From the NCBI RefSeq assembly GCF_903969135.1, contig NZ_LR824569.1, positions 3,059,001 to 3,123,000 on the forward strand: a stretch of DNA of 64,000 bases, in the 5' to 3' direction. Shown one piece after another: positions 5,110 to 40,044 of this stretch. Below the pieces are notes generated by a model. That model searched no databases. It saw nothing but the letters and a program-made list of their open reading frames with translations, and had not been told where the DNA came from. Each line of letters starts with the position of its first letter. The stretch's first letter is position 1. The translations under genes were made by a program, and so were the position numbers. Source of the DNA: Chryseobacterium sp. JV274 (GTDB lineage Bacteria; Bacteroidota; Bacteroidia; Flavobacteriales; Weeksellaceae).

Positions 5110-5128
5110 TAAATTTTACAAAATTGGT

Positions 5129-5136
5129 TATCTTTG
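5129..5136 (+). promoter_or_regulatory. -7 promoter element for sufE and the following gene
   Basis: TATCTTTG matches TAnnTTTG and sits 20 bases before the sufE start. No clear TTG is seen 19-21 bases upstream. Confidence 0.45.
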
Positions 5137-5156
5137 CAAAAGAAATTTGATTAAAA

Positions 5157-5576
5157 ATGACCATTAAAGAAAAACAGCAGGAAATAATAGACGAATTCGC
5201 TTTTCTGGACGATTGGGAGCAAAAGTACGAGTACATCATTGATCTTGGAAAAGAACTGAAAGGCCTGCCGGAAGAAAGAAAGACAGAAGAAAATCTGATT
5301 AAAGGCTGCCAGAGTAAAGTTTGGATTGATGCCGAATTTAAAGATGGGAAACTTTTCTTTAATGCAGATTCTGACGGTATTTTACCCAAAGGAATCGTTT
5401 CTCTTTTAGTAAGTATTTATAGTGGGCATTCCACTCAGGAAATTCTGGATTCTGATTTTGATTTTATTGCAGAAATAGGGTTACAGGAATTTCTTTCGCC
5501 ATCCAGAGCCAACGGATTGATGGCAATGACCAAACAGATCAAGTTTTATGCAGTTGCTTATCAACTGAAATCATAG
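5157..5576 (+). CDS. sufE: SufE family cysteine desulfurase activator
   Basis: 139 residues, the usual length of SufE. The conserved cysteine is present at residue 51 in the IKGCQSKVW motif, which accepts persulfide sulfur from the SufS cysteine desulfurase and passes it to the SufBCD scaffold. The N-terminal LDDWEQKYEYIIDLGKEL helix and the C-terminal LSPSRANG region also match the family. The rest of the suf operon is not in the window, but a SufT-like gene lies at 56.6 kb. The next gene begins 2 bases after the stop, so the two are probably co-transcribed although they share no obvious pathway. Confidence 0.93.
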   Translation: MTIKEKQQEIIDEFAFLDDWEQKYEYIIDLGKELKGLPEERKTEENLIKGCQSKVWIDAEFKDGKLFFNADSDGILPKGIVSLLVSIYSGHSTQEILDSDFDFIAEIGLQEFLSPSRANGLMAMTKQIKFYAVAYQLKS

Positions 5577-5578
5577 CC

Positions 5579-7661: not shown

Positions 7662-7683
7662 GTCAAGCAAATTCAAATGCAGG

Positions 7684-7691
7684 CAAAGGTA
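7684..7691 (-). promoter_or_regulatory. -7 promoter element for the minus-strand glycosyltransferase
   Basis: On the minus strand this is TACCTTTG, a perfect TAnnTTTG match. Its position about 22 bases upstream of the GTG at 7661 decides the start of that gene. Confidence 0.5.
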
Positions 7692-7747
7692 AATAAATAT
7701 AAGGAAAAGTGGTGAGGAAACTCTAAAATAGCTTAGGTATAAAAATA

Positions 7748-7777
7748 AAAAATCTCCCAATTTCTTGAGAGATTTTT
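7748..7777 (-). terminator. Intrinsic terminator after the tRNA-Val pair
   Basis: A 9-bp stem (AAAAATCTC / GAGATTTTT) with a T-run on the minus strand, directly downstream of the second tRNA in the transcription direction. Confidence 0.75.
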
Positions 7778-7778
7778 G

Positions 7779-7853
7779 TGGGCCCTGAGGGATTCGAACC
7801 CCCGACCCTCTGGGTGTAAACCAGATGCTCTGAACCAACTGAGCTAAGAGCCC
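7779..7853 (-). tRNA. tRNA-Val (anticodon TAC), copy 2
   Basis: The minus strand gives a complete cloverleaf. The acceptor stem GGGCTCT pairs with AGGGCCC (one U-G pair), the D arm has GCTCAGTTGGTTCAGAGC, the anticodon stem TCTGG/CCAGA holds loop TTTACAC with anticodon TAC, and the T arm has GGGGGTTCGAATCCC. It matches the copy at 7888-7962 at every base. The 34-base spacer and the terminator at its 3' side indicate a joint transcript. Confidence 0.97.
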
Positions 7854-7887
7854 TGAAATTTTTTGAAAGGCTTCAGTATCCTTTTTG

Positions 7888-7962
7888 TGGGCCCTGAGGG
7901 ATTCGAACCCCCGACCCTCTGGGTGTAAACCAGATGCTCTGAACCAACTGAGCTAAGAGCCC
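7888..7962 (-). tRNA. tRNA-Val (anticodon TAC), copy 1
   Basis: Same structure and sequence as the neighbouring tRNA-Val: UAC anticodon in a 7-base loop closed by a 5-bp stem, canonical TTCGAAT T-loop and a full 7-bp acceptor stem. It is the promoter-proximal copy of the pair. Confidence 0.97.
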
Positions 7963-8004
7963 CTATAACTTGTTTCCTCGTTTAGAGTGGTGCAAATATA
8001 CGAC

Positions 8005-9249
8005 TTATTCGGAAATCTCCAAATTTTTTTCTAAAAAATCTCCCACAACAAAGTTACTTCCCCCGATAAAAATCATTTCTTCATTTGTACATTGTTCTTT
8101 TGCAGCAAGATACGCTTCCTGTACAGAATCGAAAATTTTATAAAAAATTTTCGCCTCCTGAAGCAGATTTTCATAATCTTCTGGATGTCTTCCCCTGTTG
8201 ACAGATGGTTTTGCAAAATAGAACTCAGAATTTCCAGGAAGTAATTTCATCACATCATCTATTTTTTTGTCATTCACAAACCCCAAAATAATATGCTTGT
8301 GACGGTCAATTGAATTTAATTGCGAAAAAACATATTCCAAACCTGCCTGGTTGTGTCCCGTATCACAAATTGTAAGCGGATTTTTTGAAAACTCAAACCA
8401 ACGGCCAATGAATCCTGTGTTCTGATGAACATGGAGCAGTCCGTTTTCAAGATCTTTGTAGGAAATAGGAACCTCCAGTTTTCTTAATTCCTCTACCGCA
8501 GCCAATACAACTCTGATATTTTTCTTCTGATAATTTCCTTTCAAATCAGATTCAAGGTTTGTATTAATAAGAGTGGCGTCTATAAGGGGAGCATTTTCTT
8601 TAATCGCTTTTTCCTGGATGATATTTTTGACTGTTTCATTCTCATCACCTGAAATAATCGGGATATTACTTTTAATAATTCCCGCTTTCTCAGTGGCAAT
8701 TTCTTCAATGGTATCTCCCAAAATATTCTGATGATCCAGCTGAACATTCGTAATTACAGAGATCAGTGGTTTAATAATGTTTGTTGAATCCAGTCTTCCT
8801 CCCAATCCAACTTCAATAATGGCAAAATCTACCTGTTGCTGATAAAAATATTCAAAAGCCATGATAGTGGTAAATTCAAAGAAAGAAGGGCGGATATCTT
8901 CCGGAAGAGCCCTTAGCTTTTGAATAAACTCAAAGACAAATTTTTTATTACAGTTTTTTCCGTTAACCTTGATGCGTTCTGTAAAGTCTATCAGGTGAGG
9001 AGAATTGTATAACCCGGTTTTATAACCAGCTTCCTGAAGGACAGATGCCAGCATATTGCTTGAAGAACCTTTTCCATTGGTACCTCCAACGTGGATACAT
9101 TTGATTTTATCTTGAGGATTTTCAAAGAAAGCACAAAGCTTTGTAATATTGTCAAGTCCGGGTTTATAAGCCTTCTGCCCATCTATCTGATAGTTGGGCA
9201 TCTGCACGAAAAGCCAGTCAATAGCTTCCTGATATTGTTCATTTGTCAT
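8005..9249 (-). CDS. folC: Folylpolyglutamate synthase / dihydrofolate synthase
   Basis: 414 residues with the Mur-ligase-like ATP-binding motif GTNGKGS at residues 56-62, the NSPHLIDFTERIKVNG folate-site segment, a LGGRLDSTNI motif and the DGHNQAG-like CDTGHNQAG motif that begins the C-terminal domain. The family adds glutamate to dihydropteroate and folates in the cytoplasm. Length and motif order are normal. The gene lies upstream of the tRNA pair on the same strand and divergent from the TolC-like gene; no other folate gene is close. Confidence 0.95.
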   Translation of the reverse strand: MTNEQYQEAIDWLFVQMPNYQIDGQKAYKPGLDNITKLCAFFENPQDKIKCIHVGGTNGKGSSSNMLASVLQEAGYKTGLYNSPHLIDFTERIKVNGKNCNKKFVFEFIQKLRALPEDIRPSFFEFTTIMAFEYFYQQQVDFAIIEVGLGGRLDSTNIIKPLISVITNVQLDHQNILGDTIEEIATEKAGIIKSNIPIISGDENETVKNIIQEKAIKENAPLIDATLINTNLESDLKGNYQKKNIRVVLAAVEELRKLEVPISYKDLENGLLHVHQNTGFIGRWFEFSKNPLTICDTGHNQAGLEYVFSQLNSIDRHKHIILGFVNDKKIDDVMKLLPGNSEFYFAKPSVNRGRHPEDYENLLQEAKIFYKIFDSVQEAYLAAKEQCTNEEMIFIGGSNFVVGDFLEKNLEISE

Positions 9250-9427
9250 GGTGCAAAATTCCCAAAAGTTTTTTTAAAAAAAAATATAATTTTTCAATCT
9301 GTAACTTTTTTATATTTAATTCGTCTAATATTGAAAAATCTTAATATGAAATCGCTGTGATTTACAAATTACAATGCAGGTGACACGATTCCATATGCCA
9401 TTAAAAACAAATAAACATCTACATAAT

Positions 9428-10750
9428 ATGAAAAAAGTTTGGATCATCGTTTTTGGATTAGGTTATCTGGGTTTAAGTGCTCAGAAGAAATGGTCCTTAA
9501 AAGAATGTGTAAGCTATGCAGTGGAGCATAATCTTCAGGTTATCCAAAATCAGTATAACAAACAAAACCAGGAATACAATCTTAAAGCAGCTCAAAAAGA
9601 ATATTTGCCTTCGGTAACAGGGAGTATGACGACTGGGGTGAGTTTCGGACAAGGATCATTAGGAGCCGGAAGCTTTAGAAACGATAGATTCAATAACAGT
9701 GTTGGCCTGGGAGCCGATATCTTGGTTTATAATAATAGGAGATTAGAGAAGAATGTTCGAAAAGCTCAGTTTGATGTAGAAGCAAGCCAATATGACATTG
9801 AAACCATTAAAAATGATATTTCTCTTCAGATTGCTCAACAATATCTAACCACTTTGTTGAATAAAGAGATTGTTAAAATCTCTCAGAGTGCTGTGGGGAA
9901 TGCTCAGAAGCAGTTTGACAGAGCTAAAATCACAACTCAGGTTGGAACAACTGCCCAGACGGTTCTGGCAGAGGCTGAAGCAGCACTGGCAAGAGAAAAA
10001 CAAAACCTTAAAACAGCAGAAGTAAATGTTGGACGTGCTTTGTTTGCCATCGCTCAGCTTTTACAACTGTCAGATTATAAGGGTTTTGATGTGGAAGATG
10101 TGAATATTCCGGAAAAACTTGATTTACAACTTACTACCGCAGATGATGTGCTTGCAACTGCATATGAGATACAACCTCAGATAAAAGCAGCGGAAAGCCG
10201 TATAAGATCTGCCGAAGCACAAACTGAAGTAAGCAAAACAGCATTCTGGCCTACATTAACAGCAAGCGCTGGTCTTAACACTTTCTATAACAGGCAGTTT
10301 GATCCTATGCCAGGTACTGTGCAGGGGAATTTTTTTGAACAATATAAAGATCAGTTTGGACAAAATGTAGGGCTATCACTTAATATCCCTATTTTCAATA
10401 AAGGAAAAACAAAATTACAGGTAGAACAATCTAAGGTTAACGAAAGTCTTGCTAAAAATACACTTGAGCAGCAGAAACAGACCGTAAGACAGAATGTACA
10501 GAAAGCTCAGTTTGATGCAGACGCCAATTATGAAAATTACCTGGCAGCTGTGGAAGCCGAAAAAAGCTCCAAACTGGCTCTTGATTTTGCAGACAAAAGT
10601 TATGCTGCAGGAAGATCTACCATCTATGACGTAAACGTGGCAAGAAATAATTATGCAAATGCACAGGGATCAGTAGCGCAGGCAAAATATAATTATCTTT
10701 TTAGTCTTAAACTATTGAATTTCTATGCCGGAATTCCATTAAGTTTGTAA
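9428..10750 (+). CDS. TolC-family outer-membrane channel
   Basis: 440 residues from the ATG at 9428, which begins a signal peptide (MKKVWIIVFGLGYLGLSAQ). The body has two homologous halves with the TolC pattern of long alpha-helical stretches (EYNLKAAQKEYLPSVTGSM in the first, AESRIRSAEAQTEVSKTAFWP in the second) joined to beta segments (VGLSLNIPIFNKGKTK). It should form a trimeric exit duct for a tripartite efflux or type I secretion system. Membrane-fusion and inner-membrane pump genes are absent nearby, so the partner is encoded elsewhere. An in-frame start at 9374 would put 18 residues before the signal peptide and is rejected. Confidence 0.92.
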   Translation: MKKVWIIVFGLGYLGLSAQKKWSLKECVSYAVEHNLQVIQNQYNKQNQEYNLKAAQKEYLPSVTGSMTTGVSFGQGSLGAGSFRNDRFNNSVGLGADILVYNNRRLEKNVRKAQFDVEASQYDIETIKNDISLQIAQQYLTTLLNKEIVKISQSAVGNAQKQFDRAKITTQVGTTAQTVLAEAEAALAREKQNLKTAEVNVGRALFAIAQLLQLSDYKGFDVEDVNIPEKLDLQLTTADDVLATAYEIQPQIKAAESRIRSAEAQTEVSKTAFWPTLTASAGLNTFYNRQFDPMPGTVQGNFFEQYKDQFGQNVGLSLNIPIFNKGKTKLQVEQSKVNESLAKNTLEQQKQTVRQNVQKAQFDADANYENYLAAVEAEKSSKLALDFADKSYAAGRSTIYDVNVARNNYANAQGSVAQAKYNYLFSLKLLNFYAGIPLSL

Positions 10751-10751
10751 A

Positions 10752-11342
10752 ATGTCTATCCAATCATTAGAAAAATATTTACCTCAAAATACACTCAAAT
10801 ATTTAAGGGTATGGTTTTCAGATTACTATATCCACATAAAAGTTACAAGAAACAGGAATTCAAAACTGGGAGATTACAGAAAACTTCCGGACAATTCACA
10901 TGAAATAACGGTAAACTCTACGCTTACCCCGCAGCTTTTTTTCTTTGTATTGACCCATGAGCTCGCGCACCTGATTGCGTTTGAAAAATATGGAAGAAAA
11001 ATCTCTCCTCACGGTAACGAATGGAAAGAAACTTTCAGAAATATGCTCCTCGAAAGCCTTGAAATTTATGATGAAGAACTAAAGCCTATCATTGTAAAAT
11101 TTTCAAAATCCCCAAAGGCCAATTTCATGGCCAGCCCGGATCTGGTAAGATATTTTCATACTGAGAAACAAGATGATACTCTTCATTTTATTGAACAACT
11201 TCAGAAGGGTGAATTTTTTATATACCGCAACGAAAAGTATTTATTAGAAGGTCTAGTTAAAAAAAACTATCTTTGTAAGAACCTGGCTACTGGAAGGAAG
11301 TATTCTTTCAAGCCTTTAGCGAGGGTAGAAAAATGTAGCTAA
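10752..11342 (+). CDS. SprT-like zinc metalloprotease-fold protein
   Basis: 196 residues containing an HELAH zinc-binding motif at residues 69-73, preceded by LFFFVLT and followed by PHGNEWKETFRNM, the layout of the SprT-like domain (a protease fold shared with the DNA-protein crosslink protease Spartan). The third ligand is likely His84 in ISPHG. A C-terminal 60-residue part with two cysteines (NYLCKN, VEKCS) resembles a reduced zinc-ribbon. Function in bacteria is unproven. The start is 1 base after the TolC stop and the stop is 2 bases before manC, so the three form one transcription unit. Confidence 0.85.
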   Translation: MSIQSLEKYLPQNTLKYLRVWFSDYYIHIKVTRNRNSKLGDYRKLPDNSHEITVNSTLTPQLFFFVLTHELAHLIAFEKYGRKISPHGNEWKETFRNMLLESLEIYDEELKPIIVKFSKSPKANFMASPDLVRYFHTEKQDDTLHFIEQLQKGEFFIYRNEKYLLEGLVKKNYLCKNLATGRKYSFKPLARVEKCS

Positions 11343-29645: not shown

Positions 29646-30524
29646 ATGATCCTCGAAAACGTAGATATTGTAAATGATATCAGTAAAGAAGATTTTCAGA
29701 AGAATTATTTTAAAAAGCAGAAACCTCTTTTAATTAAGAATTTTGCCAGTCGATGGGATGCTTTTGACAAATGGAATCTGGCTTACATCCGTGAAAAAGC
29801 GGGAGATCAGGAAGTGCCGCTGTATGACAATAAACCTGCGGATGCTGCGAAAAGCTCTGATGCTCCGGTAGCCCGGATGAAAATGAAAGAATATATTGAT
29901 ACTATAAAAAGTAAACCTTCAGATCTGCGTATCTTTTTCTATATCATTACAGACAGACTTCCTGAGCTGCTGAAAAACTTTACGTATCCGGATTTGGGGA
30001 TGAAGTTTTTTAAAAGACTTCCAACGTTATTCTTCGGGGGAAGTGATGCTCATGTTTTAATGCATTATGATGTGGATTTGGGTGATTTTATGCATATCCA
30101 TTTTGAAGGAAAGAAAAGAATTCTTTTGTTTGATCAGAAGCAGTCACCATTTTTATATAAAGTTCCTTTATCTGTTCATACCGTTTATGAGCTGGATTAT
30201 GAAAACCCTGATTATGAAAAGTTTCCGGCTTTACAATATGCCAAAGGGTACGAAATTTTTATGGAGCATGGTGATGCACTCTTTATTCCGGGAGCTTTCT
30301 GGCACTTCAACAGATATCTGGAGCCTGGTTTTTCACTTTCTTTGAGAGCGCTTCCCAATAAACCGAATGTCTTTGCCAATATGCTGTATCATGTTTTCAT
30401 TATGAGATATACGGATAAACTCATGAGAAAACTTTTCAAAGCCAAATGGGTGAGCTATAAACAAAAATGGGCTTACAGAAAGAGTTCGGAAGCCCTGGAA
30501 AAACATCTAAAGTCGGGAAAATAG
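29646..30524 (+). CDS. JmjC/cupin-like oxygenase
   Basis: 292 residues. The cupin core is MHYDVDLGDFMHIHFEGKKRILLF, in which H-x-D supplies two iron ligands, and HGDALFIPGAFWHFN near residues 210-225 supplies the third histidine, the layout of Fe(II)/2-oxoglutarate JmjC-like hydroxylases (cupin_8 group). The N-terminal KKQKPLLIKNFASRWDAFDKW also matches. Substrate is unknown; related enzymes hydroxylate proteins, tRNA or small molecules. Soluble, no signal peptide. Stands alone between two repeat regions. Confidence 0.82.
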   Translation: MILENVDIVNDISKEDFQKNYFKKQKPLLIKNFASRWDAFDKWNLAYIREKAGDQEVPLYDNKPADAAKSSDAPVARMKMKEYIDTIKSKPSDLRIFFYIITDRLPELLKNFTYPDLGMKFFKRLPTLFFGGSDAHVLMHYDVDLGDFMHIHFEGKKRILLFDQKQSPFLYKVPLSVHTVYELDYENPDYEKFPALQYAKGYEIFMEHGDALFIPGAFWHFNRYLEPGFSLSLRALPNKPNVFANMLYHVFIMRYTDKLMRKLFKAKWVSYKQKWAYRKSSEALEKHLKSGK

Positions 30525-30540
30525 ACAGTATACCTTAGAT

Positions 30541-30705
30541 TATTTTAACGCAGGGAACGCAAACTTTTATTTGCTGATAAGGGTTCGCAAAGGCGTTTCA
30601 CTCAGCGAAGAAAGCTTTCGGTTGCTAAATGAAATGCCTTCGAACGAAAATAAAAGGAGTCAATATCAATTTTCTTTGCCTCTTAGCGTTAAATTTTGGA
30701 TTAAT
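30541..30705. repeat. Interspersed intergenic repeat, family A, copy 3
   Basis: A non-coding 165-base stretch between convergent genes. It opens TTTTAACGCAGGGAACGCAAAC, has GTTCGCAAAGGCGTTTCACT and ATGAAATGCCTTCGAACG in the middle and ends TTTGCCTCTTAGCGTTAAA. The order of short words is that of copy 2. Confidence 0.6.
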
Positions 30706-30706
30706 T

Positions 30707-31237
30707 TTATTTATTGATAAGACCGAAGATCGTGGCATCTACGAATTTTCCTTTTTCAAAAAAATAATCTTTCAAGGTTCCTTCTTTACTGAAATTTAAT
30801 GAAGACAGTAGCTTTTCAGAAGAAATATTGGAGGGATCAATGAAAGCATCCACCCGGTGAAGTCTCATAGATTCAAATCCGTAAGTCAGAATAGGGAGAA
30901 TAGCCTCTTTCATATAAGATTGCTGCCAGAATTTAGGATTGAGCTCATAACCAATTTCAGCTCTAAAGTGTTCCCTGTACCAATTATGATAGCCGCAGGT
31001 GCCAATGACTTTTCCATTGGATTTCAGCTCCAAAGCCCATCTGAAACCTTTCCCATTTTCGAATTCATTGTTAAAATGCTGAATAATGCGTCGGGAGTCT
31101 TCTTCTGTTTTGAAGGTATCCAGATCATAATATTCCATAACTTCATCCAGAGAAAAATACTCGAACAGGTCTTGGATATCATCGAAAGTAAGCTGACGTA
31201 AAATAAGCCTTTCAGTCTCTAAAACAGGAAATTCCAT
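30707..31237 (-). CDS. GNAT-family N-acetyltransferase
   Basis: 176 residues from MEFPVLETERLILRQL, the RimJ/RimL-like opening. An acetyl-CoA-binding region is seen at IGYELNPKFWQQSYMKEAILPI, and VDAFIDPSNISSEKLLSSLNF is the typical C-terminal part. The target is unknown. A longer frame beginning at 31267 adds 10 residues with no homology-like pattern, so the inner ATG is chosen. It ends at repeat copy 3. Confidence 0.85.
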   Translation of the reverse strand: MEFPVLETERLILRQLTFDDIQDLFEYFSLDEVMEYYDLDTFKTEEDSRRIIQHFNNEFENGKGFRWALELKSNGKVIGTCGYHNWYREHFRAEIGYELNPKFWQQSYMKEAILPILTYGFESMRLHRVDAFIDPSNISSEKLLSSLNFSKEGTLKDYFFEKGKFVDATIFGLINK

Positions 31238-31337
31238 GAATGATGTGATTTGATGGTGAAAATACAATTAATTACTGATAAAGAAAAGTGGGGAAGATTA
31301 ACCTCTAAACAATTCTCTTACCCTGAATTTATTTTTC

Positions 31338-31345
31338 TAAATTTG
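31338..31345 (+). promoter_or_regulatory. -7 promoter element for mutS
   Basis: TAAATTTG matches TAnnTTTG and lies 17 bases before the mutS ATG. Confidence 0.45.
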
Positions 31346-31361
31346 GGGCTCATTTTTTACT

Positions 31362-33956
31362 ATGGCAAAAGCAGCGAAGAAAGAAACTCCGTTAATGACG
31401 CAGTACAATACCATCAAGGGTAAATATCCTGATGCGCTATTATTATTCAGGGTTGGGGATTTTTATGAAACTTTTGGGCAGGATGCTGTCAGAACTTCTC
31501 AGATTCTGGGAATTGTCCTTACCAAAAGAGCCAATGGCGATGGGCATATAGAGCTGGCCGGATTTCCGCATCACTCTGTAGATTCTTATCTTCCAAAATT
31601 GGTAAGAGCAGGGATGAGGGTGGCGATCTGCGATCAGCTGGAAGATCCTAAAATGGTGAAAGGGATTGTAAAAAGAGGGGTAACTGAATTGGTTACACCC
31701 GGTGTTACCTTCAATGATCAGGTTTTAAATTCAAAAAAGAATAATTTCCTGCTTTCTCTACACAAAGAAAAAGAGAAATATGGAATTGCTTTAGTGGATA
31801 TTTCTACAGGAGAATTTCTGGTAAGTGAAGGAAACCTGGAAAAGCTGCTTCATATTGTCAATACTTTTGACCCAAGTGAGATTATTTACCAGAGAAGTGT
31901 ACAGATTCCGGAGCAGATTAAGAATAAAAGTGCCTTTAAACTGGAAGACTGGGCGTTCCAATATAATTTTGCCTACGAGAAATTAACGAATCATTTTAAA
32001 ACCAATTCTTTAAAAGGGTTTGGAGTAGAAAACCTTCCACTGGCTATTACTGCAGCAGGAGCTATTTTTGCCTATCTGGTAGAAGATACCCACCACAATC
32101 TGCTGGCCCATATTACAAAACTTCAGATCATTCCACAGGAAGATTATCTGATGATGGATAATTTTACCCTGAGAAACCTTGAAATTGTTTATCCCAGTAA
32201 TCCACAGGGAAAATCGCTGCTGGATATCATTGATAAAACCTCTACTCCGATGGGAGGAAGGCTTTTGAGAAGAAGAATCATTCTTCCTTTAAAATCAGTG
32301 GATGAGATTATGAGAAGGCTTTCTCTGATTGATTTCTTAAACGAAAATGATCATCTGAAATATGAAATCTGCCAGCTTCTGAGATCGATTTCTGACTTAG
32401 ACCGATTGATGGGAAAACTGGCTGCAGAGAAAATTTCACCTAAAGAATTGGGATATCTTCGCCAAAGTTTAATTAATATCCATAAAATCAAAGCATTACT
32501 GCATCCTCATGCGGATGTGCTGGCGTGGCTGGAACCTTTGTTTGATCTTGAAGAATTGATTAAGTTCCTGCAGAATCATCTTAATGAAGAACTTCCGGTA
32601 AGTATTGCCAAAGGAAATATCATTAAAGAAGGGGTTTCTGAAGAGCTTGACAGATTGAGAAATCTACAGAATAAAGGACGCGGATTCCTGGACGAAATGT
32701 GCCAGAGAGAAATTGAGAGAACAGGTATCACAAGCCTTAAAATTGATTTTAATAATGTTTTCGGATACTATATTGAAGTTCGAAATACTCATAAAGATAA
32801 AGTTCCGGATGATTGGGTAAGAAAGCAGACCCTGGTGAATGCTGAAAGATACATTACCGAAGAATTAAAGGAATACGAAAGCCAGATCCTGGGTGCCGAA
32901 GAAAAAATAGGGGTTCTGGAAACTTCACTGTACAGAAATTTATGTGCAGAAACAATGGTTTATATTGATCAGATCCAGGGGAACTCCAATATTATTGCAC
33001 AGCTTGATGTGGCTGCCGGACTATCTGAACTGGCTGTTTCTGAGAGCTATACTAAGCCTGTTTTAAATGATGGCTATGCTATCGATTTAAAAGAAGCCAG
33101 ACACCCGATCATTGAGAATGCACTTCCTCTGGGTGAAAAGTATATTCCGAATGATATCTTTCTGGATAAAGATTCCCAGCAGATTATCATGGTGACAGGA
33201 CCGAACATGGCCGGTAAATCTGCAATTCTGCGCCAGACGGCAATTGTTTGTCTTTTGGCTCAGATTGGAAGTTTTGTGCCTGCAAAACATGCTGAAATAG
33301 GAATGCTGGATAAGATTTTCACAAGGGTAGGAGCTACAGACAATATCTCTGCAGGTGAATCAACTTTCATGGTAGAAATGAATGAAGCCGCCAATATTCT
33401 GAACAATATTTCAGAGCGAAGCCTGATTTTGCTTGATGAAATCGGTCGTGGAACTTCCACTTATGACGGGGTTTCTATTGCATGGGCGATTGCTGAATAC
33501 CTTCATCAGCATCCAACGCAATCCAAGACTTTATTTGCCACGCACTATCATGAGCTGAATGAAATGACAGTCAATTTCGAAAGAGTGAAAAACTTTCACG
33601 TTTCTATTCAGGAAAATAAAGGAAACATCATTTTCCTGAGAAAACTGATTCCTGGTGGAAGTGAACACAGTTTCGGTATCCATGTGGCAAAACTGGCCGG
33701 AATGCCTGCCAAAGTGGTCAACAGAGCCAATGAAATTCTTAAAACACTTGAGGCGAGCAGAACTCAGGGAGGAGGAGGTACTTCTGAAAGTATCAAAAGA
33801 GTGACTGAGGAAAATATGCAGCTTTCCTTCTTCCAGCTGGATGATCCTGTTCTGGAAAATATCCGTGAGGAACTTACAAAAATAGATATCAATACATTGA
33901 CACCTATTGAAGCTTTAATGAAGCTGAATGCGATAAAAAAAATGATTGGAGGTTAA
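31362..33956 (+). CDS. mutS: DNA mismatch repair protein MutS
   Basis: 864 residues. The mismatch-binding motif FRVGDFYETFGQDA (Phe in the F-x-E motif) lies near residue 35, and the ABC-type ATPase has Walker A GPNMAGKS near 613-620, followed by DNISAGESTFMVEMNEAA, LILLDEIGRGTSTYDG and TLFATHYHEL. It recognises base mismatches as a dimer and recruits MutL. Length and order of domains fit MutS1, not MutS2. The stop codon lies within the loop of a bidirectional terminator shared with the peptide genes. Confidence 0.97.
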   Translation: MAKAAKKETPLMTQYNTIKGKYPDALLLFRVGDFYETFGQDAVRTSQILGIVLTKRANGDGHIELAGFPHHSVDSYLPKLVRAGMRVAICDQLEDPKMVKGIVKRGVTELVTPGVTFNDQVLNSKKNNFLLSLHKEKEKYGIALVDISTGEFLVSEGNLEKLLHIVNTFDPSEIIYQRSVQIPEQIKNKSAFKLEDWAFQYNFAYEKLTNHFKTNSLKGFGVENLPLAITAAGAIFAYLVEDTHHNLLAHITKLQIIPQEDYLMMDNFTLRNLEIVYPSNPQGKSLLDIIDKTSTPMGGRLLRRRIILPLKSVDEIMRRLSLIDFLNENDHLKYEICQLLRSISDLDRLMGKLAAEKISPKELGYLRQSLINIHKIKALLHPHADVLAWLEPLFDLEELIKFLQNHLNEELPVSIAKGNIIKEGVSEELDRLRNLQNKGRGFLDEMCQREIERTGITSLKIDFNNVFGYYIEVRNTHKDKVPDDWVRKQTLVNAERYITEELKEYESQILGAEEKIGVLETSLYRNLCAETMVYIDQIQGNSNIIAQLDVAAGLSELAVSESYTKPVLNDGYAIDLKEARHPIIENALPLGEKYIPNDIFLDKDSQQIIMVTGPNMAGKSAILRQTAIVCLLAQIGSFVPAKHAEIGMLDKIFTRVGATDNISAGESTFMVEMNEAANILNNISERSLILLDEIGRGTSTYDGVSIAWAIAEYLHQHPTQSKTLFATHYHELNEMTVNFERVKNFHVSIQENKGNIIFLRKLIPGGSEHSFGIHVAKLAGMPAKVVNRANEILKTLEASRTQGGGGTSESIKRVTEENMQLSFFQLDDPVLENIREELTKIDINTLTPIEALMKLNAIKKMIGG

Positions 33957-33972
33957 TCCAATCATTTTTTTT
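33935..33972. terminator. Bidirectional terminator with the mutS stop codon in its loop
   Basis: AAAAAAAATGATTGG (33935-33949) pairs with CCAATCATTTTTTTT (33958-33972). The 8-base loop AGGTTAAT includes the mutS TAA. It ends both mutS and the last peptide gene. Confidence 0.88.
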
Positions 33973-33996
33973 AATGATGTTAAAGTTTAGTTTTAA

Positions 33997-34152
33997 TTAG
34001 CAGCAATAGCCGTCTTTACCCCTCGGTCCGATAATAAGGAAATGGCTTACTCCTCTTAGTTTACATAGACCTTCTGCACATGCAGCTGCACCTCCGTTGA
34101 TTTCTTTGAGCTCAGCTTTGGTGAGCCTTCTTTTAAGGTTTGAATTTTTCAT
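33997..34152 (-). CDS. Double-glycine leader peptide A, cysteine-rich (bacteriocin-like)
   Basis: 51 residues, found by translating the minus strand directly. The leader MKNSNLKRRLTKAELKEINGG ends at a Gly-Gly site like those cut by C39 peptidases during export. The 30-residue core AAACAEGLCKLRG continues to a C-terminal GKDGYCC; it has four cysteines at 25, 30, 50 and 51, enough for two disulfides or other cross-links. It is the second gene of a pair with peptide B, whose stop is 30 bases upstream. No modifying enzyme or transporter is close. A signal, bacteriocin or ribosomally made modified peptide are all possible. Confidence 0.8.
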   Translation of the reverse strand: MKNSNLKRRLTKAELKEINGGAAACAEGLCKLRGVSHFLIIGPRGKDGYCC

Positions 34153-34182
34153 ATCCGCCTTGTTTAAATATTATCAACCTGG

Positions 34183-34350
34183 TTAACAGCAAAATCCATC
34201 CTGCATGCCAGGCACTCCTGAGCGTTCTTCTCCGGTGTGAGGATCTGTGCAGCTTATTACTCTTGGGCAGATGGGTCTGTTGGCTCCGCCACTGATTTCT
34301 TTAAGCTCATTTTTACTAAGCTTTCTTTTTTGATTTTTTGAATTTTTCAT
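34183..34350 (-). CDS. Double-glycine leader peptide B, cysteine-rich (bacteriocin-like)
   Basis: 55 residues on the minus strand. The leader is MKNSKNQKRKLSKNELKEISGG, nearly the same as in its three neighbours, followed by a 33-residue core ANRPICPRVISC ... MQDGFCC. Cysteines fall at 28, 34, 54 and 55, the same 2+2 plan as peptide A. It is first in a unit with peptide A and has a promoter with full TTG and near-consensus -7 elements 23 bases upstream. Core sequence differs strongly from the others except at the G-x-C-C end, which suggests paralogues under divergence. Confidence 0.82.
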   Translation of the reverse strand: MKNSKNQKRKLSKNELKEISGGANRPICPRVISCTDPHTGEERSGVPGMQDGFCC

Positions 34351-34372
34351 AATAATTTGAATTTGGTGAAAG

Positions 34373-34402
34373 CTAATTTACAAGTTATTTTATTATGTTC
34401 AA
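34373..34402 (-). promoter_or_regulatory. Promoter for peptides B and A
   Basis: On the minus strand TTG (34400-34402) is followed after exactly 19 bases by TAAATTAG (34373-34380), one mismatch from TAnnTTTG. Confidence 0.5.
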
Positions 34403-34452
34403 AATATTGTAAGTCAAATTGTTAACTTTTTTTGACGCAAATGTCATTTCAT

Positions 34453-34486
34453 AAAAAAGATTGAGGAAACCCCTCAATCTTTTTTA
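34453..34486 (-). terminator. Terminator after peptides D and C
   Basis: A 14-bp perfect stem (AAAAAAGATTGAGG / CCTCAATCTTTTTT) with a 5-base loop between the two peptide-gene pairs. Confidence 0.85.
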
Positions 34487-34506
34487 TTTAACAAAGTTTT
34501 TTGCTA

Positions 34507-34662
34507 TTAACAGCATCTTCCTTTGGTGTCACATGAGCCTATAGTCATTTCACCGTCAATATTGCAGAAACAAGTTCCCGGGCAAAGGGGGCCGCTACCT
34601 CCATTGATTTGTTTCAATTCACTTTTTGTCAATTTTCTTTTTTGAATGTTTGATTTTTTCAT
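34507..34662 (-). CDS. Double-glycine leader peptide C, six-cysteine core
   Basis: 51 residues from MKKSNIQKRKLTKSELKQINGG; the core of 29 residues (SGPLCPGTCFCNIDGEM, then a GSCDTKGRCC end) has six cysteines, two more than its neighbours. A frame extending 16 codons upstream reaches 34710 but lacks sense as a leader, so the internal ATG that matches the other three leaders is chosen. Co-transcribed behind peptide D, with 41 bases between; a strong terminator follows 21 bases after its stop. Confidence 0.82.
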   Translation of the reverse strand: MKKSNIQKRKLTKSELKQINGGSGPLCPGTCFCNIDGEMTIGSCDTKGRCC

Positions 34663-34703
34663 GATAATTTTAGTTTTGATTTGATTTCTTGAAATTTTTT
34701 TGA

Positions 34704-34865
34704 TTAGCAACAGAATCCGTCTTTTCCTACAAGACCCGGAACCATTTCTCCCGAATCAGGATGTGTACAGAACCCTCGAAGGCATCTTGGAGGAAGTGCT
34801 CCACCATTAATTTCTTTTAGTTCGCTTTTGGAAAGCTTTCTCTTTTGAGTTTTTGATTTTTTCAT
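34704..34865 (-). CDS. Double-glycine leader peptide D, cysteine-rich (bacteriocin-like)
   Basis: 53 residues: leader MKKSKTQKRKLSKSELKEINGG and a core that starts ALPPRCLRGFCTHPDSGE and ends VGKDGFCC. Cysteines lie at 28, 33, 52 and 53. It is the promoter-proximal gene of the D-C pair. Leader identity among all four is high while cores vary, the pattern expected if one protease or exporter recognises the leader. Confidence 0.82.
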   Translation of the reverse strand: MKKSKTQKRKLSKSELKEINGGALPPRCLRGFCTHPDSGEMVPGLVGKDGFCC

Positions 34866-34889
34866 GGTAATTTAGTTTTTGATTCTACT

Positions 34890-34897
34890 CAAATATA
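34890..34897 (-). promoter_or_regulatory. -7 promoter element for peptides D and C
   Basis: The minus strand reads TATATTTG, a perfect TAnnTTTG match, 24 bases upstream of the peptide D start. No TTG at the right distance. Confidence 0.45.
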
Positions 34898-34956
34898 CAA
34901 AATCATCTGTATAATTCTATAGCTTGTGAAAAAAATTAACACCTCTGTGTCTAAAA

Positions 34957-34982
34957 ATAAAAAAGAGCGCCTTAAGCGCTCT
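34957..34982 (-). terminator. Terminator after the 34988-35818 lipoprotein gene
   Basis: AGAGCGC / GCGCTCT stem with a 5-base loop and T-rich tail on the minus strand (CTCTTTTTTATTTTT). Confidence 0.75.
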
Positions 34983-34987
34983 GTGTT

Positions 34988-35818
34988 TTATAAATGATTG
35001 TATTCGTAAGTATTAACATCCGTGGAACCTGAAGGTGTATTCCCTGTTTTCTCGTAATAGCTTCGAATTTCTTTTGTAGGGTAACCACTGGCATTGTATT
35101 CAAAATTGGATTTGAAGATTGTCCATTCCGTTCCGGTTCCATTATTGTAACTGACGATGTGATTGTAGCTTAATGTATTGTGAGCAGATCCGCTTTCATC
35201 TTCATTATCAATGATTTTTAGGTATCCGGTAATATTTTTTAAAGGAGCATTTTTGGTATCATATACCACTGTTTTTAAGGTAGAAGTTGCTGTTTCAGTA
35301 GTGTTATTTTGAGTTCTTGAAAGAGTACCAGTCCAGCTGCTCATCGATCCATCAGCATTCAGTACAGCATTTCTTGTTTCAGATCTTGTTGATCCTGAAG
35401 TAGACGCAGTGTATACTATTTTCACATTGTTATTCGCTTGATAAGTATAGTTGGATTCTGAGTTCCATGATCCACCGAAATCAATCCCGTTAATTGTTTT
35501 TTTTGATAATCTGCCATTTCCGTCGTAGGTAAATTTCGTAGTAAGAGAGGTATTTGAACCATTGACTACAGACTGGGAAATAAGATCACCTGCATAGATA
35601 AATGTAGTTACACTTCCTTCAGTAAGATTTTTGATCTGAGAAATTTTTGAACCGTTATACGTAAACGTTAAAACATCTCCGTCCATCGTCATTTTTGTTA
35701 CCAAAACCGGACTGTTATCATTGTTATTTCCGTTGTTGTTAGGTGAATCATTATCGTCGTTGCTGCTAGAGCATGATGCCAACAAGAAAATTGGCAGAAG
35801 CAAATAAGTTTTTTTCAT
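34988..35818 (-). CDS. Lipoprotein with YD-like repeat stretches
   Basis: 276 residues. The signal LLLPIFLLASC marks a lipoprotein; a low-complexity region rich in N, D and S (residues 17-37) tethers the domain. The body has repeats such as LTFTYNGSKISQIKN, TKFTYDGNGRLSKKT and FEYNASGYPTKEI, which recall the YD/RHS-type beta repeats common in Bacteroidota surface lipoproteins. No toxin domain or protease is attached. It lies upstream of the peptide genes on the same strand but ends in its own terminator. Function unknown. Confidence 0.75.
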   Translation of the reverse strand: MKKTYLLLPIFLLASCSSSNDDNDSPNNNGNNNDNSPVLVTKMTMDGDVLTFTYNGSKISQIKNLTEGSVTTFIYAGDLISQSVVNGSNTSLTTKFTYDGNGRLSKKTINGIDFGGSWNSESNYTYQANNNVKIVYTASTSGSTRSETRNAVLNADGSMSSWTGTLSRTQNNTTETATSTLKTVVYDTKNAPLKNITGYLKIIDNEDESGSAHNTLSYNHIVSYNNGTGTEWTIFKSNFEYNASGYPTKEIRSYYEKTGNTPSGSTDVNTYEYNHL

Positions 35819-35957
35819 GGTTTTAAGTTTAAGGCTGTAAAAGTATTAAAAAAATGTATCCATGATAAAAATAAATTGTTCATTTGTAAATAATTTATGA
35901 AATAGGTGAATTTTATTTTTATATATCGTTGAATTTTAGTGTTTTATGGTTTTTAAT

Positions 35958-36446
35958 ATGAAGAATTTAATAAAGATATTAGCTATATTTATATTTTGTA
36001 CGGTTTTTAAAGCCCAGCAGACTGAAGTTTCTGTGATAAAATATGAAGATCTGGAAAAGCGGATTCAGCAGGAAAAAAACAAATTATTGGTTGTCAATTT
36101 CTGGTCAACAACCTGTGGGCCATGCGTAAAAGAGCTTCCTCACTTTATGGAAGTGAATGTTGAGTTTGCTGATAATCAGAAATTTAAAATGATTTTGGTT
36201 TCACTGGACAGGCTTGCAGATAAAGAAAGAGTATTGAAATTTATTAAAAATAAAAATCTTACTGCTGAGGTTCTCTTGCTGGATGATATCAAAAGAATGA
36301 ATACCTGGATCCCCAAGTTTGAAAAAGACTGGGATGGGAATATTCCTGTAACGCTGTTCTATAAAAATGGAGTGAAAGTTCATTTCAATGACGGTGAAAT
36401 GAGCAAAGAAGACCTTGGGAAAACAATTAAAGAAAATCTACAATAA
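35958..36446 (+). CDS. TlpA-like periplasmic thioredoxin
   Basis: 162 residues. The signal peptide (IKILAIFIFCTVFKAQ) is followed by a thioredoxin fold with active site WSTTCGPC at about residue 50; the cis-proline is in NIPVTLFYKNG. The class is that of the TlpA/ResA-type disulfide reductases that work in the periplasm. The ATG at 35958 is preferred to the one four codons upstream, as it starts the signal peptide. It is followed by a second thioredoxin-like gene 10 bases later, evidently an operon. Confidence 0.88.
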   Translation: MKNLIKILAIFIFCTVFKAQQTEVSVIKYEDLEKRIQQEKNKLLVVNFWSTTCGPCVKELPHFMEVNVEFADNQKFKMILVSLDRLADKERVLKFIKNKNLTAEVLLLDDIKRMNTWIPKFEKDWDGNIPVTLFYKNGVKVHFNDGEMSKEDLGKTIKENLQ

Positions 36447-36456
36447 ATAATCAATT

Positions 36457-37110
36457 ATGAAAAACCTGAAAATTTTAATGACCGCATTCATCGTTGGGCT
36501 TGGATTACTGAGCTTTACAACGACAGATCATGATAAAAACAAAATTCAGAAAGAGAATATTTCTTCAAAAGGCTATGAAGTAGGAGATGAAGCTGCTGAT
36601 TTTAAGCTTAAAAATATTGATGGCAAAATGGTTTCTTTAAGCGATTTTAAGAGTGCAAAAGGATTCATTGTTGTATTTACATGCAATCACTGCCCATACG
36701 CCAAGAAATATGAAGACAGAATTATTGAGCTGGATAAAAAATATAAAGCTCAGGGTTACCCGGTAATCGCGATTAATCCTAACGATCCTAATGTACAGCC
36801 TGAAGACGGCTTCCAGCAGATGATTGAAAGAGCAAAGCAAAAAAGTTTTACTTTCCCATACCTAGTAGATGAAGGGCAGAAAATTTATCCACAGTACGGA
36901 GCGACAAAGACTCCTCATGTTTTTGTACTGAAGAAAGAAAACGGAAAGAATATCGTGAAATATATTGGTGCTATCGACAATAATTATGATAACCCGAATG
37001 ATGTATCCGAATATTATGCTCAGGATGCCGTAAATGCTCTGATAAAAGGAGAGCCGGTAAAAATGACTAAAACGGTAGCTATCGGATGTACAATTAAAAT
37101 AAAGAAATAA
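36457..37110 (+). CDS. Secreted thioredoxin-like protein (AhpC/TSA-type fold)
   Basis: 217 residues with a signal peptide (MTAFIVGLGLLSFTTTD). The fold is of the AhpC/TSA-Redoxin class: GYEVGDEAADFKLKNIDGKMVSLSDFK opens it, and the redox motif is TCNHCPYAKKYEDRI, a C-x2-C with a shape seen in a group of periplasmic thioredoxin-family proteins of uncertain role. A cis-Pro loop (KTPHVFVLKKE) is present. A pair of terminal cysteines is lacking apart from IGCTIKIKK. Together with TlpA it may keep periplasmic thiols reduced. Confidence 0.85.
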   Translation: MKNLKILMTAFIVGLGLLSFTTTDHDKNKIQKENISSKGYEVGDEAADFKLKNIDGKMVSLSDFKSAKGFIVVFTCNHCPYAKKYEDRIIELDKKYKAQGYPVIAINPNDPNVQPEDGFQQMIERAKQKSFTFPYLVDEGQKIYPQYGATKTPHVFVLKKENGKNIVKYIGAIDNNYDNPNDVSEYYAQDAVNALIKGEPVKMTKTVAIGCTIKIKK

Positions 37111-37131
37111 TATATTTGCTCACATAAAAAT

Positions 37132-37162
37132 AAAATCGGTGTTCCTTGAATACCGATTTTTT
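37132..37162 (+). terminator. Terminator after the thioredoxin pair
   Basis: AAAATCGGT (37132-37140) pairs with ACCGATTTT (37152-37160) followed by T's. It excludes the ATG at 37146, inside the hairpin, as a start of the next gene. Confidence 0.75.
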
Positions 37163-37181
37163 ATGCCTAATCCCTTTTGAA

Positions 37182-37583
37182 ATGAAATTACAATTCAGCC
37201 TTAAATATCTCCTTCTGACCCTATTTATTTTTCTTGTAGAAGTATTGATTGCCACTAAACTGAGCGGTATTTTCTTCGTAAGAGCTTATCTCGGGGATGT
37301 TATTGTGGTGATGCTTCTTTATACTTTCGTAAAGAGTTTTGTAAAAGTAAATGATGAGAAACTGATTCTGAGGATCCTTATTTTTTCATTTTTGATAGAA
37401 TTTGCACAGTATTTCCATATTGCAGAAAAATTAGGCTTCCGTTCTGGAAGCCTGATGTATATTGTTATTGGAAATTCTTTTTCATGGATTGATAACCTTT
37501 GCTATGCCATAGGCTGTCTACTGCTCTATATTTTCGTAAGAATAACAAAAAGTGAAGGCGTAACCTCAACCTCTAATTCCTAA
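37182..37583 (+). CDS. DUF2809 membrane protein
   Basis: 133 residues with four membrane helices (LLLTLFIFLVEVLIA, LGDVIVVMLLYTFVK, ILRILIFSFLIEFAQYF and LCYAIGCLLLYIFVR) and the DUF2809 signature LGDVIVVMLLY and EFAQYF. Function unknown. The start at 37182 (MKLQFSLKYL) is taken because the upstream ATG lies in a terminator hairpin. The last nine residues (GVTSTSNS) are encoded in a pyrimidine-rich intergenic repeat, so the natural C-terminus may have been extended by repeat insertion. Confidence 0.8.
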   Translation: MKLQFSLKYLLLTLFIFLVEVLIATKLSGIFFVRAYLGDVIVVMLLYTFVKSFVKVNDEKLILRILIFSFLIEFAQYFHIAEKLGFRSGSLMYIVIGNSFSWIDNLCYAIGCLLLYIFVRITKSEGVTSTSNS

Positions 37584-37618
37584 TCCCTGCAACCTAACCC
37601 CTATTACCTACCTCCCAA
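37562..37618. repeat. Pyrimidine-rich AACCTNNAACCT-type repeat
   Basis: A tract of AACCTCAACCTCT, CCTAATCCCTGC, AACCTAACCCC and TACCTACCTCCC without purine runs. It spans the 3' end of the DUF2809 gene and the stop codon of the convergent YARHG gene. Confidence 0.6.
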
Positions 37619-38528
37619 AACTGTCATATTTATCCTCTGCATATTTGGTAAAACGGTTCAATAAAGCCACATTTTCCTTTTCCATTGGAGAAAGATCATT
37701 GTCTACATTGCTGGAAACCGGGATGTACCAGTCTGTTTGTTCGAAGAAATTTCTGTAGGTTTCTTTTTTGAAAGAGTAACCATGTCTTGCAAATACGGAA
37801 TTTTTGATGATCTCAAGATCAAGTTTTCTTAAGTTTTTAAGATCTTTTTCTGTCAGTTTCTGCTTGGAGGCATTTAGTTTGAATATTGCTTCTGAAGCGA
37901 TACGGTTCTTAGACGTTTTATAGCTTTCTGTCTTTCCGGTTTCTTCATCTTTGTACTTTTCTGTAAATTCTTTGGGATTGGACCAGTCTACCAGATCAGA
38001 ATCCTTATCAAGCATAAAGTTGGGATTATAAACAAACTCTTTTTTAGTGAGCTTAAGTGTTTTTGAAGGCGCTTTAACTGTTGTTTTATCGAAGGCATTC
38101 CATTTTCCGGTTAAGCTGTCACCTTTTAGTTTTACTTCAAACCTTCCGTCTGTTTTGTCATTTCCCGGTTCATCCAGGACAAAAGAGGTAGATGTTTCAT
38201 TGAAAACACCTCTGAACGGGCGTTGGTTGCCATTTACAATACTTTGTCCGTAAACGCTGTCCTTTGTAATTCTGTTGATCTTTAAAGAAATTCTTTTATA
38301 ATTGTTGACATCATATTCCGAACCATCTGTCTCGTCAACTACCTTTTCCATTCCGGCAAATTCACCTGTGTAAATTCCGTAATATTCTTGATGAACTTCA
38401 GGTACTACGACAGAGTCCTTTTTGGCGGTCAGAGAATCTTTCCCCGATTCATTGGTATTTCCCTCTTTTTTACAGCTTGCCAAAGAAACTGCCAGTAAAG
38501 AAATAAGAGTGTAATTTACAATTTTCAT
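37608..38528 (-). CDS. YARHG-domain lipoprotein
   Basis: 306 residues. The lipobox is SLASCKK at residue 19. The C-terminal 70 residues form a YARHG domain (NLRKLDLEIIKNSVFARHGYSFKK, then FFEQTDWYIP and LSPMEKENVALLNRF), an extracytoplasmic module of unknown ligand, thought to bind cell wall or peptide. A central beta-rich region (residues 45-160) may be another sensor. The start overlaps the stop of the DUF2306 gene by four bases (ATGA), which indicates translational coupling. Confidence 0.85.
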   Translation of the reverse strand: MKIVNYTLISLLAVSLASCKKEGNTNESGKDSLTAKKDSVVVPEVHQEYYGIYTGEFAGMEKVVDETDGSEYDVNNYKRISLKINRITKDSVYGQSIVNGNQRPFRGVFNETSTSFVLDEPGNDKTDGRFEVKLKGDSLTGKWNAFDKTTVKAPSKTLKLTKKEFVYNPNFMLDKDSDLVDWSNPKEFTEKYKDEETGKTESYKTSKNRIASEAIFKLNASKQKLTEKDLKNLRKLDLEIIKNSVFARHGYSFKKETYRNFFEQTDWYIPVSSNVDNDLSPMEKENVALLNRFTKYAEDKYDSFGR

Positions 38529-39163
38529 ATATGTTTTTTTGTGATTAAATATTCAATAATAAGGATATTGGGAATCCAGCCCAACCAGGCAATGATCTGA
38601 TAGACATCCATTGGATTGGGATGAAATAAATATACAATAATTACTTTCCACATTCTCAGAGTAATGGCAGATAATGTAAAAGCAAAACTCCGCCACATCC
38701 ATTGCTTGTGCTCTTTGAACCTTTTCTGTCTTGCCAGTTGATATGCTTTATATGTTGAAAACCACCATGAAAAGCCCAAAATAACAAAAGAAACCTTTGA
38801 TAAAAGCCCTCCGTTTGCAAAGAGTCCCATATAGATTCCAGAAGGGGCAGCGAAAATCAGAATGAGAAAAATATACATTTTTCCCATATTCCGATGAAAG
38901 TTTTTTAATCCAAAATTCAGTCTGAGAATAGCCAGAAATCCTGAAAGAAGGACAAAAATGCTTGTATAAACGTGAGTATAAAAAAATGTAAGATATTCAG
39001 GTCTGTCTATAACTTCCGTCTGTTTGATCATCAGAAAACTGACTTCAGGATTAAAAGGAATGTATTCTAAGGTGATCTTCAGCATCAGCCAAAAGAAATA
39101 CCCGAATCCTATGATGAGAAGGATTTTAAAGAAGGAATTACTATTTCTTTTAGCAGAGAGCAT
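38525..39163 (-). CDS. DUF2306 membrane protein
   Basis: 212 residues with about six membrane helices. The family signature is HVYTSIFVLLSGFLAILR, GKMYIFLILIFAAPSGIYMG and FKEHKQWMWRSFAFTLSAITLR, in which histidines lie in the membrane and may bind heme or metal. No function is known. It is first in a coupled pair with the YARHG lipoprotein and is preceded, on the same strand, by the small TonB-domain proteins after a 5-base gap, so all four genes may be a unit. Confidence 0.85.
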   Translation of the reverse strand: MLSAKRNSNSFFKILLIIGFGYFFWLMLKITLEYIPFNPEVSFLMIKQTEVIDRPEYLTFFYTHVYTSIFVLLSGFLAILRLNFGLKNFHRNMGKMYIFLILIFAAPSGIYMGLFANGGLLSKVSFVILGFSWWFSTYKAYQLARQKRFKEHKQWMWRSFAFTLSAITLRMWKVIIVYLFHPNPMDVYQIIAWLGWIPNILIIEYLITKKHI

Positions 39164-39168
39164 TTTAA

Positions 39169-39585
39169 TTATTCAAAATTGATAGTGAAAGGGACGGTAA
39201 ACCAAATCAACGCAGGATGCCCTTTGTATTCTCCGGGAGTCCACTTGGTTTTCATAGATTTCATAGCTCTTTCCACTTCATGATTAAGAGATTCATTTTC
39301 TCCTGTTACGATAATAGTTTCTATCTCACCTTTAGCATTGACTGAGAATTTTGCATTGGAGCGGGCTTTACCTTTTGGCCCTTTTATTCGATTAGAATTA
39401 ATTTTTTGAGTTACATCCCGCATGAATGCAGAAATTCCACCAGGATATTCTGATGGCTTACTTTGCTCAGGTATATTCTCATTTCTGGAATGATCTTCTG
39501 TGGGCTGCGTTTTAGTTTCCTGTGTCTGAGCAAAAGCCAGCCCAAATCCAAGGCATAAAATGAATGTTGATATTTTTTTCATCAT
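39169..39585 (-). CDS. Secreted TonB C-terminal-domain protein, unanchored (1)
   Basis: 138 residues. It has a cleavable signal peptide (FILCLGFGLAFAQ) instead of the membrane anchor of real TonB, a short polar linker (residues 20-45) and a C-terminal TonB-like fold (SNAKFSVNAKGEIETIIVTGEN, VERAMKSMKTKWTPGEYKGHPALIWFTVPFTINF). The conserved P-G motif and WTPG are present. As a free periplasmic protein it cannot be energised by ExbBD, so its job differs. A paralogue lies just upstream (39616-40044). Confidence 0.8.
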   Translation of the reverse strand: MMKKISTFILCLGFGLAFAQTQETKTQPTEDHSRNENIPEQSKPSEYPGGISAFMRDVTQKINSNRIKGPKGKARSNAKFSVNAKGEIETIIVTGENESLNHEVERAMKSMKTKWTPGEYKGHPALIWFTVPFTINFE

Positions 39586-39615
39586 ATTAGTTTATAGTCT
39601 GTTTGGATTAGTTTT

Positions 39616-40044
39616 TTAAATACTTAGGCCCATCGGCATGGTAAATTTGGTTTTAACCGGTTGTCCGTTTATAGTACCGGGCTTCCATTTTTTCTTTAAT
39701 TTCTTCATAATACGATCCATTTCTTTATTCAGAATAGGACTATTGCCAGTTGTAGAAATTGAGCTAATACTTCCATCAGGATTAACATCAAAAGTCGTTA
39801 CAGATTTAAATGTTCCAGGAGAGTTCGAAAATTTAGAAATATCCATTTCACTGCTTATATACTTTCTTATGGCTACCATTCCACCTGGAAATTCCGGAGC
39901 AATAGATATAGTATCATCTACCTTATGCTCATCTTTATTTATCTCTGACGAAGGAGATGGTGATTGCTGCTCTTCTTTTTGTGTTGTTTGGGAAAAGGCA
40001 AACTGAGCTCCTAACAGTAAAATCAGTATTGATATTTTTTTCAT
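39616..40044 (-). CDS. Secreted TonB C-terminal-domain protein, unanchored (2)
   Basis: 142 residues, paralogous to the previous gene: signal peptide (ILLLGAQFAFSQ), glutamine- and serine-rich linker, then FPGGMVAIRKYISSEM and the TonB-like TTFDVNPDGSISSISTTGN, IMKKLKKKWKPGTINGQPVKTKFTMPM. It too lacks a membrane anchor. The gap to its neighbour is 30 bases. A duplicate at 52415 resembles these two less closely. Confidence 0.8.
   Translation of the reverse strand: MKKISILILLLGAQFAFSQTTQKEEQQSPSPSSEINKDEHKVDDTISIAPEFPGGMVAIRKYISSEMDISKFSNSPGTFKSVTTFDVNPDGSISSISTTGNSPILNKEMDRIMKKLKKKWKPGTINGQPVKTKFTMPMGLSI

Follow-up and report, generated by a model that had tools for sequence, protein, structure and literature searches.

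What do four short genes make that share a leader and have no exporter beside them, and what would mature their products? The question is raised by a window of 64,000 nucleotides from Chryseobacterium sp. JV274 (the whole stretch analysed; contig NZ_LR824569.1, positions 3,059,001 to 3,123,000), in which genes D, C, B, and A lie on the minus strand at 33997-34865, between a lipoprotein-like gene and the convergent mutS. A preliminary description of this DNA had reported four tandem genes for double-glycine (GG) leader peptides with a common C-terminal G-(F/Y/R)-C-C and defined cysteine plans, and the open reading frames (ORFs), alignment, and sequence bear this out. We consider it likely that peptides A-D are precursors of secreted, disulfide-bonded mini-proteins matured by a shared C39 exporter and VKOR-thioredoxin machine.

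The peptides and their leader family

According to the ORF list and alignment, gene D (34704..34865, minus strand, as are the other three) codes for 53 amino acids, with a leader ending at G21G22 and a 31-residue core on a C-x4-C-x18-CC plan. Gene C (34507..34662), which starts at an ATG within a longer TTG-started frame, codes for 51 amino acids with a 29-residue core containing six cysteines. The product of gene B (34183..34350) has 55 amino acids and a 33-residue core (C-x5-C-x19-CC), and that of gene A (33997..34152) has 51 amino acids and a 30-residue core (C-x4-C-x19-CC). Alignment of these precursors of 51-55 amino acids gives 19 invariant columns, including G21, G22, C28, C33, C52, and C53 in D numbering.

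All four match the NCBIfam model NF047798, leader_Chryseo, from model position 5 or 6 to 18, that is, the N-terminal leader motif through the double glycine, with scores of 21.1, 19.2, 17.2, and 15.7 bits against a curated cut-off of 23.5. They share with this family the leader core K-L-(S/T)-K-x-E-L-K-x-I-x-G-G, the genus, and the copy range but differ in falling below the cut-off, and the NF047798 model gives no mechanism. The core family had been thought undescribed; the G-x-C-C core is indeed covered by no NCBIfam match, whereas the leader is close to a described signature. No Pfam model matched peptides A-D at its own cut-off, and neither of the L1a/L1b lanthipeptide leader models matched them. 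In the titles and abstract openings covered, with subscription papers outside that scope, neither leader_Chryseo peptides nor the C39-like VKOR fusion considered below was the subject of any paper.

The further leader copies that the preliminary description proposed to look for are numerous. An NF047798 search of the same genome gave 57 places at E <= 10, of which 56 are small leader frames; the remaining one is not a leader peptide but falls within an enzyme that was identified by eye as an E2 acyltransferase. The 56 frames occur singly and in small groups across the chromosome, and the part of each that comes after the leader contains 2 to 8 cysteines; the frame at 586505 is without an ATG. 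Five adjoining genes at G000:C1:4493402-4494524 have six-cysteine cores of related type, and the peptide at G000:C1:581207-581491 has a long Gly-Val repeat core with four cysteines close to its end; matches of similar score in 100-residue frames occur in several congeners. Across the genus, 160/173 Chryseobacterium genomes (own included) carry the leader family at E <= 0.001, with a few up to dozens of peptides per genome. Among 395 genomes drawn evenly from the order, 45 had leader matches at E <= 1e-5, namely, 40 Chryseobacterium (own included), three from another genus of the same family, and two from a third genus.

An exporter and a predicted oxidase elsewhere in the genome

Neither C39 exporter nor thiol oxidoreductase genes were found among the ORFs at 30000-40000, and the ORF list shows no LanB or LanC near the cluster. 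The preliminary description had proposed, from the common leader, substrates of C39-type export with no machinery adjacent, and the genome agrees with it: far from lacking a leader peptidase or exporter, it has two C39 peptidase genes (PF03412, E 3.6e-37 and 2.7e-32), neither of them beside the cluster. One belongs to a C39-type ATP-binding cassette (ABC) exporter of 731 amino acids that is accompanied by a HlyD-like adaptor (locus L092, G000:C1:3,728,596-3,732,390) about 0.63 Mb from the cluster, and between the two lies the gene of a leader-family peptide that scores 21.1 bits, again below the cut-off. Beside this exporter, at C1:3,732,579-3,734,090, is the gene for a 503-residue protein with VKOR and Thioredoxin_4 domains. 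The four peptides had been called orphans without an enzyme, which is true of their immediate neighbourhood but not of a genome with 56 leader frames and a VKOR-thioredoxin gene next to an exporter. The second C39 ABC exporter is part of an ordinary class I lanthipeptide cluster (3209-11061 in locus L093, G000:C1:3337500-3357000) with four precursors, LanC, and a LanB-like protein of 1047 amino acids. We infer that the L092 exporter, and not this lanthipeptide-linked one, handles A-D.

The arrangement recurs in other genomes. VKOR surroundings were fetched from 19 further genomes, a non-random set in which many were chosen for leader matches near VKOR. In 16/19, the stretch has VKOR, C39-ABC, and HlyD genes on a single strand, whereas C39-ABC and HlyD are missing from the remaining three stretches. 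Of these 16, 14 had leader peptides with cysteines encoded between VKOR and C39-ABC, and 12 had them between C39-ABC and HlyD. Co-occurrence over the 173 genus genomes is free of this stretch selection, although its counts ignore relatedness: with the oxidase at E <= 1e-100 and the leader family at E <= 0.001, 158 genomes have both, 11 have neither, and four are discordant (oxidase only in G114 and G157, leader only in G094 and G132). At looser limits, G114 and G157 show weak leader matches, and in G132 oxidase residues 2-375 are matched at 46%, 1 kb from a leader peptide and with the thioredoxin part unmatched, while G094 is still an exception, with a leader and no oxidase. G063 combines a distant oxidase match, at 25% identity, with the absence of a leader match. 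A leader-family peptide at G000:C1:3944167-3945903 lies by a second VKOR-like gene, 28% identical and with an internal stop, and this locus looks like a decayed second system.

The N-terminus of the oxidase has a C39 peptidase fold in its modelled structure. No catalytic cysteine was found in this domain, which is without cysteine in 23/23 rows, and the column facing the catalytic histidine, in an alignment that is itself not significant, holds S in 19 rows, A in 3, and T in 1. The domain would be a C39-like pseudo-peptidase without catalytic residues, which possibly docks the leader.

Even cysteine numbers and what they indicate

Cysteine counts in the 56 own cores are 2 (2 cores), 4 (19), 5 (2), 6 (29), and 8 (4). 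A leader model built from 49 own leaders added, at a score of at least 7, 134 further distinct cores from 36 other genomes; one match scoring 5.8 was dropped from this set. An even number of cysteines was found in 184/190 distinct cores of the leader family, or in 183/189 once a decayed frame without cysteines (G019) is left out, whereas 500 residue shuffles gave a mean of 50% and a maximum of 61%. At the cluster level (single linkage, 40% identity, with 118 members in one cluster), 33/35 are even (p 2e-8). The odd cores are those of one five-cysteine family, one singleton, and the own ATG-less frame. The five-cysteine family (G000:C1:2884434-2884595 with L218, L220, and L229) has five cysteines in each of its four members, and its pairing may occur between molecules. 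Because counts are even in 184/190 cores against 50% in shuffles, disulfides are indicated; the simplest reading of these sequences is that cysteines are used in pairs, which points to disulfides.

Two other uses of the cysteines have to be weighed against this. If A-D were ribosomally synthesized and post-translationally modified peptides (RiPPs), altered in trans by another enzyme through lanthionine, DUF692-type, or graspetide chemistry, a point in favour would be the lanthipeptide cluster of this genome, which comes with a C39 exporter, and the available text on published Chryseobacterium pathways describes a cysteine-modifying DUF692 (PMC10214503) and the graspetide chryseoviridin (PMC8939145). 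However, even numbers are expected for disulfides and not for bridges from Cys to Ser/Thr, and cysteine counts in this genome's four lanthipeptide precursors are 9, 7, 8, and 9; the one precursor of the four that was scanned has an L1b leader, unlike that of A-D. No ATP-grasp gene was seen among the ORFs beside the cluster, and no genome-wide DUF692 or ATP-grasp search was made. We regard RiPP chemistry as improbable. Binding of metal ions instead of disulfide formation would suit small cysteine-rich proteins with a C-terminal CC, but the linkage between leader-family peptides and a predicted thiol oxidase, together with the even cysteine number of nearly all core clusters, makes it more improbable still.

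Proposed maturation route

Genes A-D would encode precursors whose mature products are disulfide-bonded mini-proteins, some 30 residues long, that the cell secretes. The common leader would bring each precursor to the C39-ABC exporter and HlyD-like adaptor, the C39 peptidase would cleave after GG in the course of export, and the VKOR-thioredoxin protein would make the disulfides while the core emerges; the N-terminal pseudo-peptidase domain of the oxidase probably docks the leader. One machine probably serves the roughly 56 dispersed peptides of this genome in this way. The non-random choice of the 19 VKOR stretches and the partial nature of the G132 oxidase match slightly lower our confidence in such a shared machine.

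More tentatively, and at somewhat less than even chances, we suggest a disulfide-forming machine guided by the leader: a VKOR-thioredoxin oxidase with a dead C39 domain would read the GG leader and link oxidative folding with C39 export. In each Chryseobacterium cell, a single exporter-oxidase operon would then mature dozens of mini-proteins encoded at scattered sites, with the G-x-C-C set a conserved, possibly signalling, class among them. This wider architecture is the interesting part of the system. If it is true, each strain of this common genus, which is environmental and opportunistic, secretes by way of a single machine its own library of disulfide-rich mini-proteins, from a few to dozens, much as animals and plants have their repertoires of disulfide-rich peptides. 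Many genes now labelled merely bacteriocin-like or hypothetical would gain a testable function, and the docking-plus-oxidase fusion could serve as a tool for producing disulfide-rich peptides.

Conservation and possible activity of the G-x-C-C peptides

A profile built from peptides A-D matched 94/173 Chryseobacterium genomes (own included) at E <= 1e-9. In a scan with the leader pattern of one genome per species, all named relatives were Chryseobacterium, and 53/53 loci were confirmed when checked by G-x-C-C alignment; the D peptide of C. panacisoli is 100% identical. From 41 genomes (own included), 119 distinct precursors were obtained, 115 of them with the CC end (105 with four cysteines, 9 with six, and 1 with two); the four without it include a truncated one in G017, where a class A copy (L076, G017:C1, 743272-743429) is interrupted by stops next to class B genes. 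The cluster and mutS lie within the same fetched stretch in 41/41 genomes.

These precursors sort into classes, and each class is conserved between species. Variable cores had been noted earlier, and the cores do vary strongly within the locus, but not within a class. Nei-Gojobori ratios of nonsynonymous to synonymous change (dN/dS) over pairs, with equal-length members (106/115 class members) used for the cores, were lowest for the class A core (0.020, 22 sequences), which shows few substitutions between species, and reached 0.117 for B (36), 0.111 for D (17), 0.092 for C4, 0.072 for C6 (10 sequences), and 0.057 for E; leader values were 0.03-0.12. Since homologues occur in many genomes with core dN/dS of 0.02-0.12, the genes are more than chance ORFs, and the low core and leader values therefore mean that they are translated and constrained, the cores being under strong purifying selection. 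A lack of conservation of leaders and cores in relatives, which would have counted against the peptides, is the reverse of what was found. Gene C of the window (34507-34662) represents a six-cysteine class, whereas a four-cysteine class is at the corresponding place in relatives; the difference is two cysteines, and the number is still even.

Regarding activity, two readings compete, both compatible with the same maturation route. The peptides could be bacteriocins of the bacteroidetocin/class II type that kill related Bacteroidota, with self-protection without immunity proteins. The production logic resembles that of the bacteroidetocins as given in the available text (PMC6671954: a GG leader, four cysteines, a thiol oxidoreductase, and a C39-type ABC exporter, without an immunity gene), NCBI describes the NF047798 family as bacteriocin-like, and the paralogues are numerous with differing cores. 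However, net charge in the 56 own cores is mostly zero or negative (-5 to +2, median -1), whereas bacteroidetocins A and B carry +2 and +6, and strong purifying selection at a fixed mutS-side place contrasts with bacteroidetocin genes on mobile elements (same source). We rate this reading as possible, with the odds somewhat against it. Alternatively, the peptides could be intercellular or self-signals, or envelope-acting effectors, kept within the genus and exported by the shared machine, which we place not far short of even odds. The class A dN/dS, the constant place by mutS with several classes maintained side by side, and the near-neutral charge favour this reading; against it, the ORFs listed around the cluster include no receptor or two-component gene, and 79/173 genus genomes have no match to the subfamily profile at E <= 1e-9. 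For near-neutral, conserved cores without immunity genes, a secreted effector or signal is no worse a fit than a bacteriocin, and we place it slightly ahead.

Organization of the locus

Spacings of 41 bases between D and C, 30 between B and A, and 156 between C and B define two units, D-C and B-A. Each had been credited with its own promoter-like element and terminator. The units and terminators stand: a terminator-like hairpin with a T-run follows unit D-C (34451..34487, minus strand, folding z -5.9), and another follows unit B-A (33935..33972, minus strand, z -6.7), overlapping the end of the convergent mutS. A simple terminator scan listed neither hairpin and picked a terminator 3' of the upstream lipoprotein-like gene. 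The promoter-like element stands for D-C only: TATATTTG (34897-34890, minus strand), read from the sequence, is a putative -7-like box ahead of that unit, which we take to be of the Bacteroidetes type. In aligned upstream stretches of relatives, no exact -7 box of that kind precedes gene B, although the stretch 5' of it is conserved. The constant neighbour mutS (31362..33956, plus strand), which has the cluster at its 3' side, is not counted as a cluster member. The other flank, upstream of gene D (lipoprotein-like gene, 34988-35818), is variable, with a lipoprotein-like gene at the loci of 4/15 genomes first compared.

Comparison with known systems

PCAT1, ComA, and the AMS/PCAT proteases have a C39 domain and couple cleavage of the GG leader to export, and the modelled N-terminus of the oxidase shares their fold; its domain differs in being without cysteine and fused to a redox protein. 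The C39-like domain of HlyB (3zua) is on a transporter, whereas the one here is on a VKOR-thioredoxin oxidase. Chryseoviridin shares the genus and several precursors per locus but, in the available text, has lactam/lactone rings made by an ATP-grasp enzyme within whose locus the precursors lie (PMC8939145).

There is also a likeness, by description, to the bacteroidetocins (proposed class IIf), likewise of Bacteroidota, whose region, in the text available to us, has a C39-type exporter and no immunity gene and whose activity requires a thiol oxidoreductase and a five-transmembrane protein beside the peptide (PMC6671954). The GG leader with four cysteines is found in three of the four peptides, the product of gene C having six. 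Bacteroidetocins, of which A and B are cationic, come from a single four-gene region, peptide included, on mobile elements. In the present genome, by contrast, the peptides number dozens, are dispersed over the chromosome with near-neutral cores, and are apparently served in trans; the exporter and oxidoreductase lie not beside A-D but elsewhere in the genome with another leader-family peptide, and the oxidoreductase fuses VKOR and thioredoxin parts and also has a C39-like domain. Judged from sequence, A-D would belong to the known disulfide-bonded peptides with a GG leader and C39 export, set apart by a single machine that would act in trans on many dispersed substrates.
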